Shown piece after piece: positions 1,073 through 56,718 of a stretch of 64,000 bases of DNA. Source of the DNA: a virus. Location of the stretch: positions 1 to 64,000 of the IMG/VR virus record IMGVR_UViG_3300047321_000170; one strand, 5' to 3'. Both the position numbers and the translations under genes were made by a program. The notes below the pieces were generated by a model. The model saw only the letters and a program-made list of their open reading frames with translations, was not told the origin of the DNA and searched no databases. The first letter of the stretch is position 1. The number at the start of each line of letters is the position of its first letter.

Positions 1073-1905
1073 TGCCAACCCTCCAGCAGACATGGTCTGA
1101 GCTTGAGGCTTATGTCGAGCGGATCTTCTTCTCCCAGGTCACGGACAAGATCGCGGGTTACGCCGACGATCTTGCGGTGCAGATCGAGAAGGATATTAAC
1201 CGCTCGCTCAATACGTTCTTCAAAGACCTGGCTGGCCTGATACAGCCGGGACTTGAGGGACCGCCAGACGGCCTTGACCAGTACATGTACGGCAGCTGGG
1301 GGGAACTCAGCAATCGCTACTACAGCTGGAAGAACCCCTCGTCTATCACGAGGGACAACAGAAGCAGCAACTTCTTCATGCTGAGCGAGCTGGCTCGCAT
1401 CAAGCGCAATTCGACGAAGTCAAAGCAGCAGTGGCGTCAAAAGAGAGTGAAGACGGTCAAGCAGCTGAAGGCGAGCCCGAGTCTGCGGATGCAAGTCAGC
1501 AACCTGGCCAACCCCAGCGCTTACTACGGCAAGGTCTCGGTGACGATCGAGTCGCACACCAAAGTCAACCGTGGTGGCCGACGCCAATACAAAGCGGGGA
1601 CGTTCCGTCAAGGCGTCAACGTAGGTGGTCAAGTGATCCGGTCGGCGAGTGACTTTGTCACACTGAGCGTTGTATGGCTCCCGGCCATTAACGGTCTCGA
1701 TCCCCTTACGCGGGGCGTGACGGAGAACCCGCGTGGAGGCGCCGCACTGCCTGACAGCCTGCGAACAAAGTTGCTCAACCATGAACACAACGAGCAAGGC
1801 GTGGCATATCGTCCGCTGCTCGGCCCCTACATGCTGTGGTATCAGGACATGGTGATTCGCAGAATCGTCAAGTCCGCGATAGCCCCTTACGGACCACTGG
1901 AATGA
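1072..1905 (+). CDS. Minor tail protein, lambda Z-like position
   Basis: 277 residues, rich in basic residues around positions 110-135 (KRNS, KSKQQWRQKRVK), with no recognised catalytic motif. It lies where lambda gpZ lies, between the connector and the tail terminator, and is somewhat longer than gpZ. Its stop overlaps the next start (ATGA at 1902-1905). A tail-completion protein acting at the head-proximal end of the tail is the best guess. Family membership is inferred from gene order only. Confidence 0.5.
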   Translation: MPTLQQTWSELEAYVERIFFSQVTDKIAGYADDLAVQIEKDINRSLNTFFKDLAGLIQPGLEGPPDGLDQYMYGSWGELSNRYYSWKNPSSITRDNRSSNFFMLSELARIKRNSTKSKQQWRQKRVKTVKQLKASPSLRMQVSNLANPSAYYGKVSVTIESHTKVNRGGRRQYKAGTFRQGVNVGGQVIRSASDFVTLSVVWLPAINGLDPLTRGVTENPRGGAALPDSLRTKLLNHEHNEQGVAYRPLLGPYMLWYQDMVIRRIVKSAIAPYGPLE

Positions 1906-2363
1906 TCACGACCAACGCCTACGGCGACCATCTGTCGAGCCTGCTCAAGTTCTGCGGCGACTTCGCCGAAGAGATCAACGTACCGGGGCAACCTGACTTC
2001 CAGCCGGTCTACCTCGATGCCTACGAGGACTATGAAGCGTTGCCGGTCGGATCGCTGATCGGTGTCGCCGGCTACACGATCGGAATCGACGAGCACCTGG
2101 CCCACGTCACTGTGATGATCGGGCTCGCGACCGAGAACGATGCGAACGAGTTCCGGTTGACTGCGGCTATGGGGAAGTTAATGAATCGTCTGCTGCCCAC
2201 CAAGCGAATCGACGTGGTCGATTCAGAGACTGGTGAGCAGCTGGGTCAGATGACGATTGAAAACGGCATTCGAACGATGCCGTCGAGTGGAGCAATGGGA
2301 CGATCCATGAAATACATCGCATTCACGGCGTCGTCCGACGTTACTGTCGATTTGACTGCGTAA
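1902..2363 (+). CDS. Putative tail terminator / completion protein, U-like
   Basis: The start at ATG 1902 is chosen because it overlaps the previous stop in an ATGA. An in-frame start at 1836 would lie deep inside the upstream gene. The product has 153 residues, close to tail-terminator proteins of lambda-like phages, which cap the tube and join it to the head. It directly precedes the major tail gene, as U precedes V in lambda. The last 23 bases overlap the antisense ribbon-helix-helix gene. Confidence 0.5.
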   Translation: MITTNAYGDHLSSLLKFCGDFAEEINVPGQPDFQPVYLDAYEDYEALPVGSLIGVAGYTIGIDEHLAHVTVMIGLATENDANEFRLTAAMGKLMNRLLPTKRIDVVDSETGEQLGQMTIENGIRTMPSSGAMGRSMKYIAFTASSDVTVDLTA

Positions 2364-2535
2364 GGCTGCGGATCAACTCTGCATCTGACTTCGTGCCAGC
2401 GTCAAGGCCGGCTTCAATGAGAGTGATCAGCTCCGCGTTCTTCGTGCGGCGGTTGATCTTTGCTCGCGCGACGACTTGCTCATGTACCTCGGGCGGAAGT
2501 CGCAACGTGGACGCCACCATGTCTTCAACGTTCAT
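2341..2535 (-). CDS. Arc/CopG-type ribbon-helix-helix DNA-binding protein
   Basis: 64 residues. The N-terminal half has the ribbon-helix-helix pattern: a beta strand (VASTLRLPPEVHEQV) followed by two amphipathic helices (RAKINRRTKNAELITLIEAGL), as in Arc and Mnt repressors, which bind DNA as dimers. It is encoded against the tail operon, between the U-like and V-like genes, and overlaps the 3' end of the former by 23 bases. GGAG lies nine bases before the ATG. The inverted repeat 2580-2606, 45 bases upstream of its start, is a natural candidate operator. Repressor function is inferred. Confidence 0.8.
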   Translation of the reverse strand: MNVEDMVASTLRLPPEVHEQVVARAKINRRTKNAELITLIEAGLDAGTKSDAELIRSLTQSNRQ

Positions 2536-2579
2536 TCCTTGGTTCTCCTATTAACCAATAAAAACCTTTGATTCGAAAC

Positions 2580-2606
2580 GGTAGCACACGTAGCATCCGT
2601 GCTACC
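2580..2606. promoter_or_regulatory. Inverted repeat: operator or terminator
   Basis: Perfect 8-base arms GGTAGCAC (2580-2587) and GTGCTACC (2599-2606) enclose 11 bases that carry a further GTAGCA. The + strand continues with AGATTTTT, so it could end transcription from the U-like gene. The three half-sites and its place just upstream of the antisense ribbon-helix-helix gene equally suit an Arc-type operator. Confidence 0.6.
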
Positions 2607-2631: not shown

Positions 2632-3423
2632 ATGGCTGGTGAAGCAAAGTCAAATAAGTTCATGCTTGGCGCGGCCACCGTGATGATCGGCCCGCAAAAA
2701 GACCTGTTCAACCTGAACCCCGACGACCACTCGATCGGTCTTGTCAAAAACTTCTCGATCAGCGGCCAGCCGGCATACACCGAACTGACGCAGGGCGTGA
2801 AGAACTCGGTGGTGTATTCGGTGATGACCGGTAACCCCGTCACCGCGACGATGGAAGTCTATGAGCACACGTCAAAGAACCTGGCATACGGCCTGGGTCT
2901 GGACGGCTCTGCGATGGACCCGATCGCCACGAAGACCACGACCAACGCTGACGTTCCTTCGAACATCGCGGGCACGAAGCTGCTCCCGGTGGCCTCGGTC
3001 ACGGACCTCGTCATTGGCGACTGGATTCAAGCCCTCGCTCCCGGCGCGACCGACAAAGTGCTGGTGGCCCGCATCACCGATGTCGACGCTGTTGCGAAGA
3101 CGCTCACGATTGCGGACGACCAGGCGTTCGACTACGCCCTGCCGATCGGCTCGACGGTGCAGAAGGTGAACGTGGTGGGTATCGGCTCGAAGTCCGACCA
3201 GCCGTTCCTGTCGGCCAAGGTCGTCGGCAACCTCGCGGACGGCACGCCGGTCGCGCTGCTGATCCCGAAGATCCGCATCACGGGCGGCTTCACGCTGGCG
3301 TTCAAGACGGACTCGTTCGGCAATCTGCCGTACAAGTTCCAACCGTACGACCTGGTCTCCGACGACCCGTTCTACGATACGTTCCTGCCGTTCGGCCAGG
3401 CGATGCTCGCAGCAGCGAACTAA
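2632..3423 (+). CDS. Major tail tube protein
   Basis: 263 residues. The ATG at 2632 is preceded by CGGAGA; an alternative start at 2599 lies inside an inverted repeat and has no ribosome site. It occupies the V position: after the terminator protein, before the tail assembly chaperones, with a strong terminator directly after it, the usual layout for the most abundant tail protein. The sequence is typical of a beta-rich tube subunit with an inserted central region (residues about 105-205). No catalytic motif. The assignment rests on position and general character. Confidence 0.75.
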   Translation: MAGEAKSNKFMLGAATVMIGPQKDLFNLNPDDHSIGLVKNFSISGQPAYTELTQGVKNSVVYSVMTGNPVTATMEVYEHTSKNLAYGLGLDGSAMDPIATKTTTNADVPSNIAGTKLLPVASVTDLVIGDWIQALAPGATDKVLVARITDVDAVAKTLTIADDQAFDYALPIGSTVQKVNVVGIGSKSDQPFLSAKVVGNLADGTPVALLIPKIRITGGFTLAFKTDSFGNLPYKFQPYDLVSDDPFYDTFLPFGQAMLAAAN

Positions 3424-3461
3424 GGTTCTTCGCGGTACTAAAAAGTTCCTTGCTGCACCAA

Positions 3462-3491
3462 GCCCTCAGATTTAAGATCTGAGGGCTTTTT
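3462..3491 (+). terminator. Rho-independent terminator after major tail gene
   Basis: Nine-base perfect stem GCCCTCAGA / TCTGAGGGC (3462-3470 with 3478-3486), loop TTTAAGA, then TTTTT. It separates the major tail gene from the chaperone genes and probably lets the former be expressed at a higher level. Confidence 0.9.
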
Positions 3492-20646: not shown

Positions 20647-20672
20647 GGCACTCACCACCACCACAGAGTGCC
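20647..20672 (+). promoter_or_regulatory. Start-associated hairpin with CAC loop
   Basis: Perfect seven-base stem GGCACTC / GAGTGCC (20647-20653 with 20666-20672), loop ACCACCACCACA, four bases before the endolysin ATG at 20677. No Shine-Dalgarno sequence. This is the clearest + strand member of the family. Confidence 0.8.
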
Positions 20673-20676
20673 CCTC

Positions 20677-21207
20677 ATGTCCGTCACATCCGATCAGCTG
20701 CGGAAGATCTGGACGCATGCTCCTTCAGTGCGCTGCGTGTCGTTCGCGCCGCTGCTGAGCAGCGCAATGCAGCGCTTTGGCATCGACACCCCCGAAGAGA
20801 TCGTCGAGTTCCTGGCTCAAGTCTCGCACGAGTCTGGCGAAGGCCAGTGGCTCAAGGAGCTGGCCAGCGGCAAGGCCTACGAAGGCCGTAAGGATCTCGG
20901 CAACACGCAACCGGGCTGGGGTGTTCTCTACAAAGGCCGCGGCTTGATCCAATGCACGGGATACACGAACTACGTGCTTATGGGCCATCTGTTGGGCCTA
21001 GACCTGATCAACCATCCGGAGCTGCTGGAAGAGCCCGCTAACGCGTGCTTGAGCGCCGCAGCATTCTGGTGGAACCACCATCTCGATAACCTCGCGTTGA
21101 AGAAGGACTTCGTCGGTGTGACGAAGGTCATCAACGGCGGAACGAACGGCCTCAAGGAGCGTGAAGAGTATCTGGCGCTCGCCCGCGCCGCTCTGGGAGT
21201 GAACTGA
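20677..21207 (+). CDS. Endolysin, glycoside hydrolase family 19 type
   Basis: 176 residues from ATG 20677 (a GTG at 20668 lies in the hairpin arm). The motifs are those of chitinase-like GH19 phage lysins: AQVSHESGEGQWLKEL with candidate acid Glu52, YEGRKDLGNTQPGWGVLYKGRGLIQCTG (split here as YEGRKDLGNTQPG and YKGRGLIQCTG), and VTKVINGGTNGLKEREEYL. It hydrolyses the peptidoglycan sugar backbone at lysis. No signal peptide, so it depends on a holin. It overlaps the next gene by one base. Confidence 0.93.
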   Translation: MSVTSDQLRKIWTHAPSVRCVSFAPLLSSAMQRFGIDTPEEIVEFLAQVSHESGEGQWLKELASGKAYEGRKDLGNTQPGWGVLYKGRGLIQCTGYTNYVLMGHLLGLDLINHPELLEEPANACLSAAAFWWNHHLDNLALKKDFVGVTKVINGGTNGLKEREEYLALARAALGVN

Positions 21208-31432: not shown

Positions 31433-32716
31433 ATGGCGCGTAAAACACATCTTCTGGACGACATCCAGATCCGGCACTGGATCGCCAAGGGCGAGCCGGT
31501 CGCCAAGTCAGATGGTGAAGGCCTGACCTTTACCCTCTCCTCAGCCGGCACCGCGAGCTGGATCTTGCGCTACCGCCGAGGCGGCGGTCGCCGTAAGGAA
31601 ATCACGATCGGCAACTATCCGGACATGACGCTCGCCGCGGCCCGAAAGGCTGCTCGTGCCCACCGCGTCGCGGTCGACAATGGGATAGACCCCGCAGCTG
31701 AGAAGAAGGTCGAGAAGGCGCGCTCCGTGCTCGCGTGGACCGTCAACGAGCTGTGCGACGACTACGAGGAGAAGCACCTGGTGGCGCCCCTCTCGAAGTC
31801 CACGATCTATTACCGGAAGTGGGACATCAAGAACATCATCCGGCCTAAGCTGGGTTCGCTCGAAGTTCGCAAGATCCTGCCTGCTGACATCGTCTACATT
31901 CTGGAGAACAGCGGGCGCACCTGGACGGTGAATAAGCGAATCCTTACATCTATGAAGCAGCTCTTTGGCCATGCGCTAGGGAAGCGGATCATCGACGTGA
32001 ACCCCGCCTTCGGTATCGAGATGAAGGCACTGTTCGGCAAACGCCCGCCCGTTCGCAAACGCCTGATGCTCACCGAGGGCGAGCTTCGCAAACTGCTGCC
32101 TGGCATTGACAAGAAGATCGGCCGCGAGAACGGCCTCATGCTGCGCGTGCTGCTGGCTACCTGCGTGCGAACGAACGAGCTGGTCATGGCCCGCAAGCAG
32201 TTCATCGATCTGAAGCGCGGCTCCTGGTTCGTACACGACGAGTCGGTCAAGACTCGTCAAGGCTTCACCGTCCCGCTGGTTCCTGTCGTCATTGGCTGGA
32301 TGAAAGAGCTGTACGCCCTGTCCGGAGACTCCGACTGGCTGTTGCCAGCTCGCAGCAACAAACGCCGCAACCGGCTTGGTGAAACTCATATCGGCAATAC
32401 CACGCTGTGGGCCGCGATCACGCGAGCGTTCCAATCTGAGAAGCTGGAGATGCGTCGCTTCACGCCGCACGATACGCGCAGCACCGCCAAAAGCCATATG
32501 CGGAATCTGGGCATCTCGAACGAAGTCAGTGAGCTTGCGCTTAACCACAAGCTCAAAGGTATGGAAGGGATCTATGACGTGCGAGAAGAGATCCCCGAGC
32601 GACGCGAGGCGATGGAGATATGGGCGCAGTTCATTGCAGACTGCTGCGACGGTAAGGAACCGGAAACGGGCCGACCAACGAACGTGGTCGCATTGAGAAG
32701 GAAGGCTGCGGCTTGA
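31433..32716 (+). CDS. int: P4-type tyrosine integrase
   Basis: 427 residues. The N-terminal 90 residues are the arm-binding domain typical of P4-family integrases (KSDGEGLTFTLSSAG, ITIGNYPDMTLAAARKAAR). The C-terminal catalytic domain carries Arg in ATCVRTNELV, HDTRSTAKSHM (HxxR), LNHKLKGMEGIYDV with the candidate nucleophile Tyr, then the usual family ending. It inserts the phage at an attachment site, often a tRNA gene in this family. Its promoter lies within the inverted repeat 31378-31418, suggesting autoregulation or repressor control. Confidence 0.93.
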   Translation: MARKTHLLDDIQIRHWIAKGEPVAKSDGEGLTFTLSSAGTASWILRYRRGGGRRKEITIGNYPDMTLAAARKAARAHRVAVDNGIDPAAEKKVEKARSVLAWTVNELCDDYEEKHLVAPLSKSTIYYRKWDIKNIIRPKLGSLEVRKILPADIVYILENSGRTWTVNKRILTSMKQLFGHALGKRIIDVNPAFGIEMKALFGKRPPVRKRLMLTEGELRKLLPGIDKKIGRENGLMLRVLLATCVRTNELVMARKQFIDLKRGSWFVHDESVKTRQGFTVPLVPVVIGWMKELYALSGDSDWLLPARSNKRRNRLGETHIGNTTLWAAITRAFQSEKLEMRRFTPHDTRSTAKSHMRNLGISNEVSELALNHKLKGMEGIYDVREEIPERREAMEIWAQFIADCCDGKEPETGRPTNVVALRRKAAA

Positions 32717-55938: not shown

Positions 55939-56718
55939 TCAGTCAAGGAAGAAGTGGCCGTTCTCTTCGGTGAATCCGTTATGCCGCAGATCCCCTTCCC
56001 AGTAGTGCTCCCAGTCGATGTAGCCGAACATCGGATGCTGGTCGTCGATCAGCCCGGTCTCGACGGCCCAGTCCATCGCGAAGTCCTTTACGCTGTCCCA
56101 GTGGCCGCGATATGCGTCGCGGAACTTGTCGACCGACGCGTCCTTGAGGTCGCCGCTCTGGCATGTATTGACCCAGATCATAAAGGCTTCCATCTCTTCG
56201 TCGCTGTCCAGCTCGCCGAGCACTTCCTCGATCTTCGCGATCTCGGACAGCGGCGTGTACTCGCCGATCAGCCCGTTCGGGTAGCCTTCGTGATCGTGGA
56301 TCGCGTACTCCTCTGACGAGGGCAACTTGCCTGCCCCGTGGCAGCGCTCGCACACCTTGACCTCGATGTTCTCGCCGGCCTGGAACGCCTCCAGCGCGGC
56401 AAGGCGTGTCGCGCCCACGTAGTTCATCGCGTCGAGGTCCTGCTCAGCCACCCAGCGACCATCGGCCAGCATGCGGGCGTTCCAGCCCTTCGTCTCGATG
56501 GCGTTGTCCAGCTGCTCTTCGAGTGTGTTGTCCCCCTCGCAGTCGGGGCACGTCACCAGCACGTTCGGGAAGCGGCTGGTCAATAAGACCTTGTCTCGTA
56601 CTTCCTCGTACAGCTCGTCGGCGTCCATGCCTTCGGTGTCGATCCAGGTGCCATGCAGAACGCCGTTGTTGTACGACGCAAGACAGGCCACATAAATGCG
56701 GCGGTCGGTTGTAGTCAT
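55939..56718 (-). CDS. ardA: ArdA-type antirestriction protein with zinc-finger insertion
   Basis: 259 residues. The opening RIYVACLASYNNGVLHGTWI and the later EEYAIHDHEGYPNGLIGEYT, FRDAYRGHWDSVKDFAMDWA and YIDWEHYWEGDL match ArdA, a DNA mimic that inhibits type I restriction enzymes. ArdA proteins are usually about 165-185 residues. Here residues about 55-130 are an insertion holding CPDCEGD and CERCHGAGK, two CxxCxGx(G) knuckles like half of a DnaJ zinc finger. The start follows a CAC tract with no Shine-Dalgarno site. Strongly acidic overall. Confidence 0.85.
   Translation of the reverse strand: MTTTDRRIYVACLASYNNGVLHGTWIDTEGMDADELYEEVRDKVLLTSRFPNVLVTCPDCEGDNTLEEQLDNAIETKGWNARMLADGRWVAEQDLDAMNYVGATRLAALEAFQAGENIEVKVCERCHGAGKLPSSEEYAIHDHEGYPNGLIGEYTPLSEIAKIEEVLGELDSDEEMEAFMIWVNTCQSGDLKDASVDKFRDAYRGHWDSVKDFAMDWAVETGLIDDQHPMFGYIDWEHYWEGDLRHNGFTEENGHFFLD

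Follow-up and report, generated by a model that had tools for sequence, protein, structure and literature searches.

A small gene that runs leftward inside the rightward tail operon of a phage raises the question of what its product does there and which gene it might control. The gene lies in a 64,000-nucleotide stretch of DNA (hereafter the window) from an 82,936-bp virus record, the source of which is a temperate siphophage of ~83 kb related to the Achromobacter phage JWF. The nearest named relatives are the Achromobacter phages 2-1 and JWF, with putative major tail proteins (MTPs) 60% and 58.5% identical to that of the window, followed by the Xylophilus phage Lumi and the Caulobacter phage Seuss. 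The best explanation, which we consider probable, is that the gene encodes a small ribbon-helix-helix (RHH) repressor, probably autoregulated, that is dedicated to a separate MTP transcription unit.

A 64-residue Arc-like gene opposite the tail genes had been proposed in an earlier, sequence-only reading of this locus, and this assignment was confirmed by profile, fold and substitution analyses. The RHH (Arc/Mnt-type) regulator gene occupies positions 2341-2535 on the minus strand, begins with an ATG codon and is preceded by a Shine-Dalgarno sequence, AGGAG, at 2545-2549 on the same strand (score 5 in the start-codon check). Its 64-aa product matches the Pfam Arc family PF03869 (E-value 4.5e-6; 26.8 bits, where the cut-off is 20.4) as the sole Arc match in the 82,936-bp record, and it also matches PHROG 795/3178; no plasmid relatives were found at an E-value of 1e-3. 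The dN/dS ratios of the frame were about 0.07-0.30 in all nine of the close-relative pairs compared, with changes mostly at third codon positions, demonstrating that 2341-2535 is a protein gene rather than a chance frame; as judged from these sequence comparisons, it is under purifying selection. The AlphaFold2 model (pLDDT 91.5) contains helices at residues 15-27 and 32-62, preceded by the β-strand segment ASTLRLP (residues 8-14). Being modeled as a monomer, it has no strand assigned, the β-strand pairing only in the dimer. The strand-helix-helix fold was recovered by Foldseek with probability 1.0 to its top PDB matches, AmrZ (3qoq) and Arc (1par), at E-values of 0.02-0.03. PHROGs 795 and 2685 are labeled 'partition protein ATPase', yet the RHH protein matches through a DNA-binding domain, and the label looks wrong for Arc-like proteins, including gp66 and gp67 of the Pseudomonas phage PS-1.

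According to our script-based ORF call, the RHH gene is the sole leftward gene before ~26 kb within the rightward structural block. The rightward gene upstream of it (1902-2363, plus strand) is a putative tail terminator by gene order alone, since it matched no PHROG family and exceeded no Pfam cut-off. As the earlier reading had stated, the two genes overlap, in this case by 23 nt from 3' end to 3' end. On the other side lies the putative MTP gene (2632-3423, plus strand; 263 aa), which matches PHROG 28493, of unknown function, at 2.5e-100 and, weakly, the major tail protein PHROG 807 at 4.5e-4, in a gene order like that of JWF and 2-1. No cognate toxin gene, such as a toxin-antitoxin pair would include, adjoins the RHH gene; both neighbors are conserved genes of the phage structural module. 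An intrinsic terminator is predicted just 3' of the MTP gene (3460-3488, plus strand; 13-bp stem and T-run), and a terminator-like structure follows this gene in 80 of 87 loci (drawn from the locus set described below, with L039 and L097 left aside as too short and L100 as unusable); it is also annotated in the JWF and Seuss records. The MTP gene thus belongs to a bounded unit consisting of the RHH gene, a shared control region, the MTP gene and the terminator. Elsewhere in the window, a glycoside hydrolase family 19 endolysin-like gene (20668-21207, plus strand) is followed by two small ORFs, with which it probably forms a lysis cassette, and an ArdA-type antirestriction protein (Pfam PF07275, 8.3e-28) is encoded at 55939-56718 on the minus strand.

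The presence of the gene in related tail operons, a check that the earlier reading had proposed, was assessed in 90 loci encoding MTP relatives: the window, the 80 best of 116 viral relatives, one genome contig and eight phage records. Two loci, L064 and L100, end before the slot. In 77 of the 88 evaluable loci, an antisense RHH frame lies directly upstream of the MTP gene. Most frames were found by profile search; a marine set with weak or no score was added through shared sequence, and its fold was tested separately. Many loci are near-copies, and the RHH-bearing ones fall into 46 groups at below 80% intergenic identity. The slot is retained across MTPs down to about 35-40% identity, and the RHH protein varies among relatives from one to two RHH domains, the marine version being predicted as two RHH units in tandem (strand-helix-helix twice, pLDDT 88.4). 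Retention of this arrangement while the protein itself changes suggests that a single structural gene has a switch of its own built in. Four named phages have the slot occupied, namely JWF, 2-1, Lumi and Seuss. The gene is annotated as 'Arc-like DNA binding domain protein' in JWF and as 'hypothetical protein' in 2-1. For Lumi and Seuss, the deposited annotation leaves the gap empty, but both contain an unannotated antisense RHH gene on the minus strand of the locus (4644-4901 in L020, Lumi; 4496-4882 in L021, Seuss), the Seuss frame being longer at about 130 aa. The remaining 11 of 88 loci (L046, L055, L057, L073, L092, KB12-38 and five Acinetobacter phages) have an MTP gene without any RHH gene, indicating that the latter is dispensable; in RHH-less relatives, the gap before the MTP gene measures 58-101 nt. 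The slot of L046 (3901-5001) is occupied by another MTP-like gene, which shares 37% identity with its neighbor over 268 aa, so that a tandem tail-protein pair stands where others have the RHH gene.

The conserved element between the RHH and MTP genes is an array of ACC/GGT triplets that recur roughly every 10 bp. In the window, the proposed operator array GGT-N10-ACC-N7-ACC-N13-GGT spans 2541-2582 (triplets at 2541-2543, 2554-2556, 2564-2566 and 2580-2582), with a further ACC beyond it at 2604. The array covers the Shine-Dalgarno region of the RHH gene and abuts the -35 element of the predicted MTP promoter. Tandem RHH dimers on one face of the DNA would require steps near one helical turn. 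We scanned the 46 groups for triplets repeated directly at any spacing between 2 and 15, with 300 dinucleotide shuffles as the control; ACC-N7-ACC ranked first, being present in 15 of 46 groups versus 1.19 expected and in no more than five groups in the 300 shuffles. In a separate scan for inverted triplets, GGT-N10-ACC came first (11 groups versus 0.66 expected), followed by GGT-N20-ACC (8 versus 0.61) and ACC-N13-GGT (8 versus 0.91), as well as ACC-N23-GGT. ACC-N7-ACC was found in 15 of the 17 groups whose β-strand reads [AG]x[TS]xR, a class defined after seeing the data, and in none of the 29 others. The MTP tree offers three independent pairs on supported branches (one agreeing, two uninformative), too few for significance, so we treat the association as a pattern that is not phylogenetically independent and does not amount to proof. 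For RHH types outside this strand class, no operator was established except GGT-N10-ACC in the marine group, the marine groups contributing this element only. Across the 82,936-bp record, the array occurs in one place only with up to one mismatch, the reversed control pattern giving one hit. No further copy was convincing, and since the reversed control outnumbered the motif at three mismatches, only the perfect site counts.

The top sigma70-like site of the intergenic region comprises a predicted -35 element (TTGATT, 2568-2573, plus strand) and, after a 17-nt spacer, a predicted -10 element (TAGCAT, 2591-2596, plus strand); the -35 begins 4 nt downstream of the first base of the last ACC in the array. 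A simple consensus scan requiring 9 of 12 matches returned no promoter at this site. In 10 of the 15 ACC groups, the distance from the start of the last ACC to that of the top sigma70-like site is 4-5 nt; in the other five, the site at that spacing ranks 2, 7, 2, 2 and 5. Over all 46 groups, sigma70-like scores (from unfitted weights) barely exceeded those of shuffled sequences, with a mean z of 0.47 rightward and 0.61 leftward; the promoter claim therefore rests on the ACC groups. The sigma70-like scan of the window's intergenic region found no clear leftward promoter for the RHH gene (reverse z -0.7).

From these data we infer DNA binding, repression, autoregulation and a role in timing for the RHH protein. 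Its dimers would bind the ACC/GGT triplets of the divergent region cooperatively at about 10-bp steps and would thereby mask the -35 element and spacer of the sigma70-type promoter predicted to drive rightward transcription of the MTP gene. The same binding would cover the upstream and Shine-Dalgarno region of the RHH gene, so that the repressor would limit its own synthesis. The outcome would be little MTP expression in lysogens and at the early stage of an infection, and the promoter could be released by template copy number or by falling repressor; a further route of release may be late transcription that traverses the repressor gene in antisense. The earlier suggestion that the Arc-like protein could repress its own promoter is probably correct, and the neighboring tail promoter is probably repressed with it, given an array that covers both the Shine-Dalgarno side of the RHH gene and the MTP -35. 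The late genes of phages are generally viewed as a single block that answers to one activator; if a conserved repressor acted locally on just one high-copy structural gene, dose or timing would be subject to an additional level of control. The repressor and its proposed site vary among relatives, so the 46 groups form a natural set for relating RHH β-strand residues to DNA triplets. A bolder version, which we offer as speculation and rather doubt, holds that these siphophages of ~80 kb keep, throughout the lineage, a fast-diverging RHH timer whose sole target is the MTP promoter, that antisense late transcription is its off-switch, with heads and neck licensing a burst of tail-tube synthesis, and that repressor and operator are exchanged together.

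Two other readings were considered, and we regard each as unlikely. According to the first, synthesis of the RHH protein takes place chiefly in the prophage, where it acts like a second repressor that silences the tail (late) genes. The window phage does carry a tyrosine integrase (31433-32716), JWF is listed as temperate, turbid and reinducible (PMC3899368), and a relative with an MTP 80% identical to that of the window lies inside a 290-kb Burkholderia paludis contig. However, 14 of the 34 long RHH-bearing records, including those of Lumi, Seuss and JWF, lack a PF00589 integrase, which makes a purely lysogenic role unlikely, and an operator array that occurs once would not place late genes in general under its control. 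Among 44 long records, a PF00589 integrase was found in 20 of 34 with and in 3 of 9 without the RHH gene (L064 was not evaluable, and the count refers to PF00589 only); integrase presence thus shows no clear link to the RHH gene, and a lysogeny-only role was set aside. The general silencing of late genes in the lysogen suggested by the sequence-only reading is weakened on the same grounds. JWF (records L002 / L014, NC_029075.1), temperate by phenotype in the source just cited, has no PF00589 match, unlike the window phage. For Lumi, its authors report clear plaques and no temperate-phage genes, but allow for a prophage state given the kinship with JWF (PMC9959647).

The second reading, similarly unlikely as a full account, is a convergent switch. 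Late rightward transcription through the tail-to-tail overlap would shut off the RHH gene, so that expression of the head operon would open the MTP promoter, and RHH synthesis would in turn produce antisense RNA over the tail-terminator gene. The geometry is compatible with this: in 57 of 76 RHH rows, the 3' end of the RHH gene extends 4-83 nt into the upstream sense ORF, so that a terminator could hardly fit between them. The other 19 rows do not follow the pattern: in two the genes are separated by a gap, and in 17 the overlap is larger, probably representing chance sense ORFs inside the RHH gene.

Less probable still is that the gene is a moron or a remnant of a P22-type secondary immunity module (arc/mnt/ant) that was inserted into the late operon and is unconnected with the MTP gene. 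In phage P22, genes 16 and 9 of the late operon do flank the immI region (PMC8022706), and phage PS-1 carries divergent Arc-like genes and two antirepressor genes among its tail genes. Nevertheless, no antirepressor gene stands beside the window RHH gene, and both the retention of the slot over such diverged MTPs and the position of the array on the MTP-promoter side argue against an unlinked insertion.

It is very improbable that the RHH gene is incidental and that the hairpin at 2580-2606 acts as an attenuator or terminator before the MTP gene: the palindrome GGTAGCAC-N11-GTGCTACC does form a perfect 8-bp stem (GGTAGCAC/GTGCTACC, -13 kcal/mol) with a T-run behind it, but among the 13 loci of the window's clade, five (the window, L004, L005, L006 and L008) have this stem and in the other eight it is broken, even though the RHH gene and the GGT/ACC triplets have been preserved. 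A stem and T-run kept among relatives, as a terminator or attenuator would predict, were therefore not observed, and the attenuation of tail transcription envisaged earlier was dropped. The sequence-only reading had named loss of the gene with retention of the hairpin as the outcome that would speak against it; the reverse was found, with the gene kept and the hairpin lost. Its description of an inverted repeat with three GTAGCA copies is accurate (two direct, at 2581-2586 and 2590-2595, and one inverse, TGCTAC, at 2600-2605, all inside the stem-loop region). As half-sites these copies were rejected, being unconserved, with the second overlapping the predicted -10; what is conserved are the outer GGT and ACC triplets of the palindrome.

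Based on these results, a local repressor of the MTP gene remains the preferred explanation, and it can be compared with several known systems. What is new here is the conserved antisense RHH slot beside the MTP gene; JWF already had its Arc-like gene annotated, and no RHH regulator of a major tail gene was described in the open literature searched (titles and the beginnings of abstracts). JWF gp17 shares position and strand with the window RHH gene and is 37% identical to it, but it is known by annotation only, its record giving no operator or function. The best fold match of the marine two-RHH relatives is a chain of the F-plasmid relaxosome (PDB 9f0x chain E, E-value 3e-3), a tandem-RHH protein that we take to be TraY; it is an oriT accessory protein, whereas the marine relatives lie by a phage tail gene. 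The direct precedents are P22 immI and the cluster of Arc-like and antirepressor genes among the tail genes of PS-1. P22 Arc and Mnt resemble the window RHH protein in family, small size and late-operon location. They control the antirepressor gene ant (PMC8022706), whereas the window RHH gene has no ant beside it and is flanked instead by the putative tail-terminator and MTP genes. Likewise, the PS-1 genes adjoin antirepressor genes, whereas the window gene adjoins a candidate structural target. The best match of the window protein by both sequence profile and fold is AmrZ of Pseudomonas aeruginosa (PDB 3qoq), which reads 5'-GGC half-sites via Lys18, Val20 and Arg22, represses its own gene and, showing that RHH proteins can also activate, acts as an activator as well (PMC3325190). 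These contacts align to Ala8, Thr10 and Arg12 in the window protein, for which the proposed triplet is GGT/ACC, and while AmrZ regulates many cellular genes, the window RHH protein is proposed to be a local regulator.
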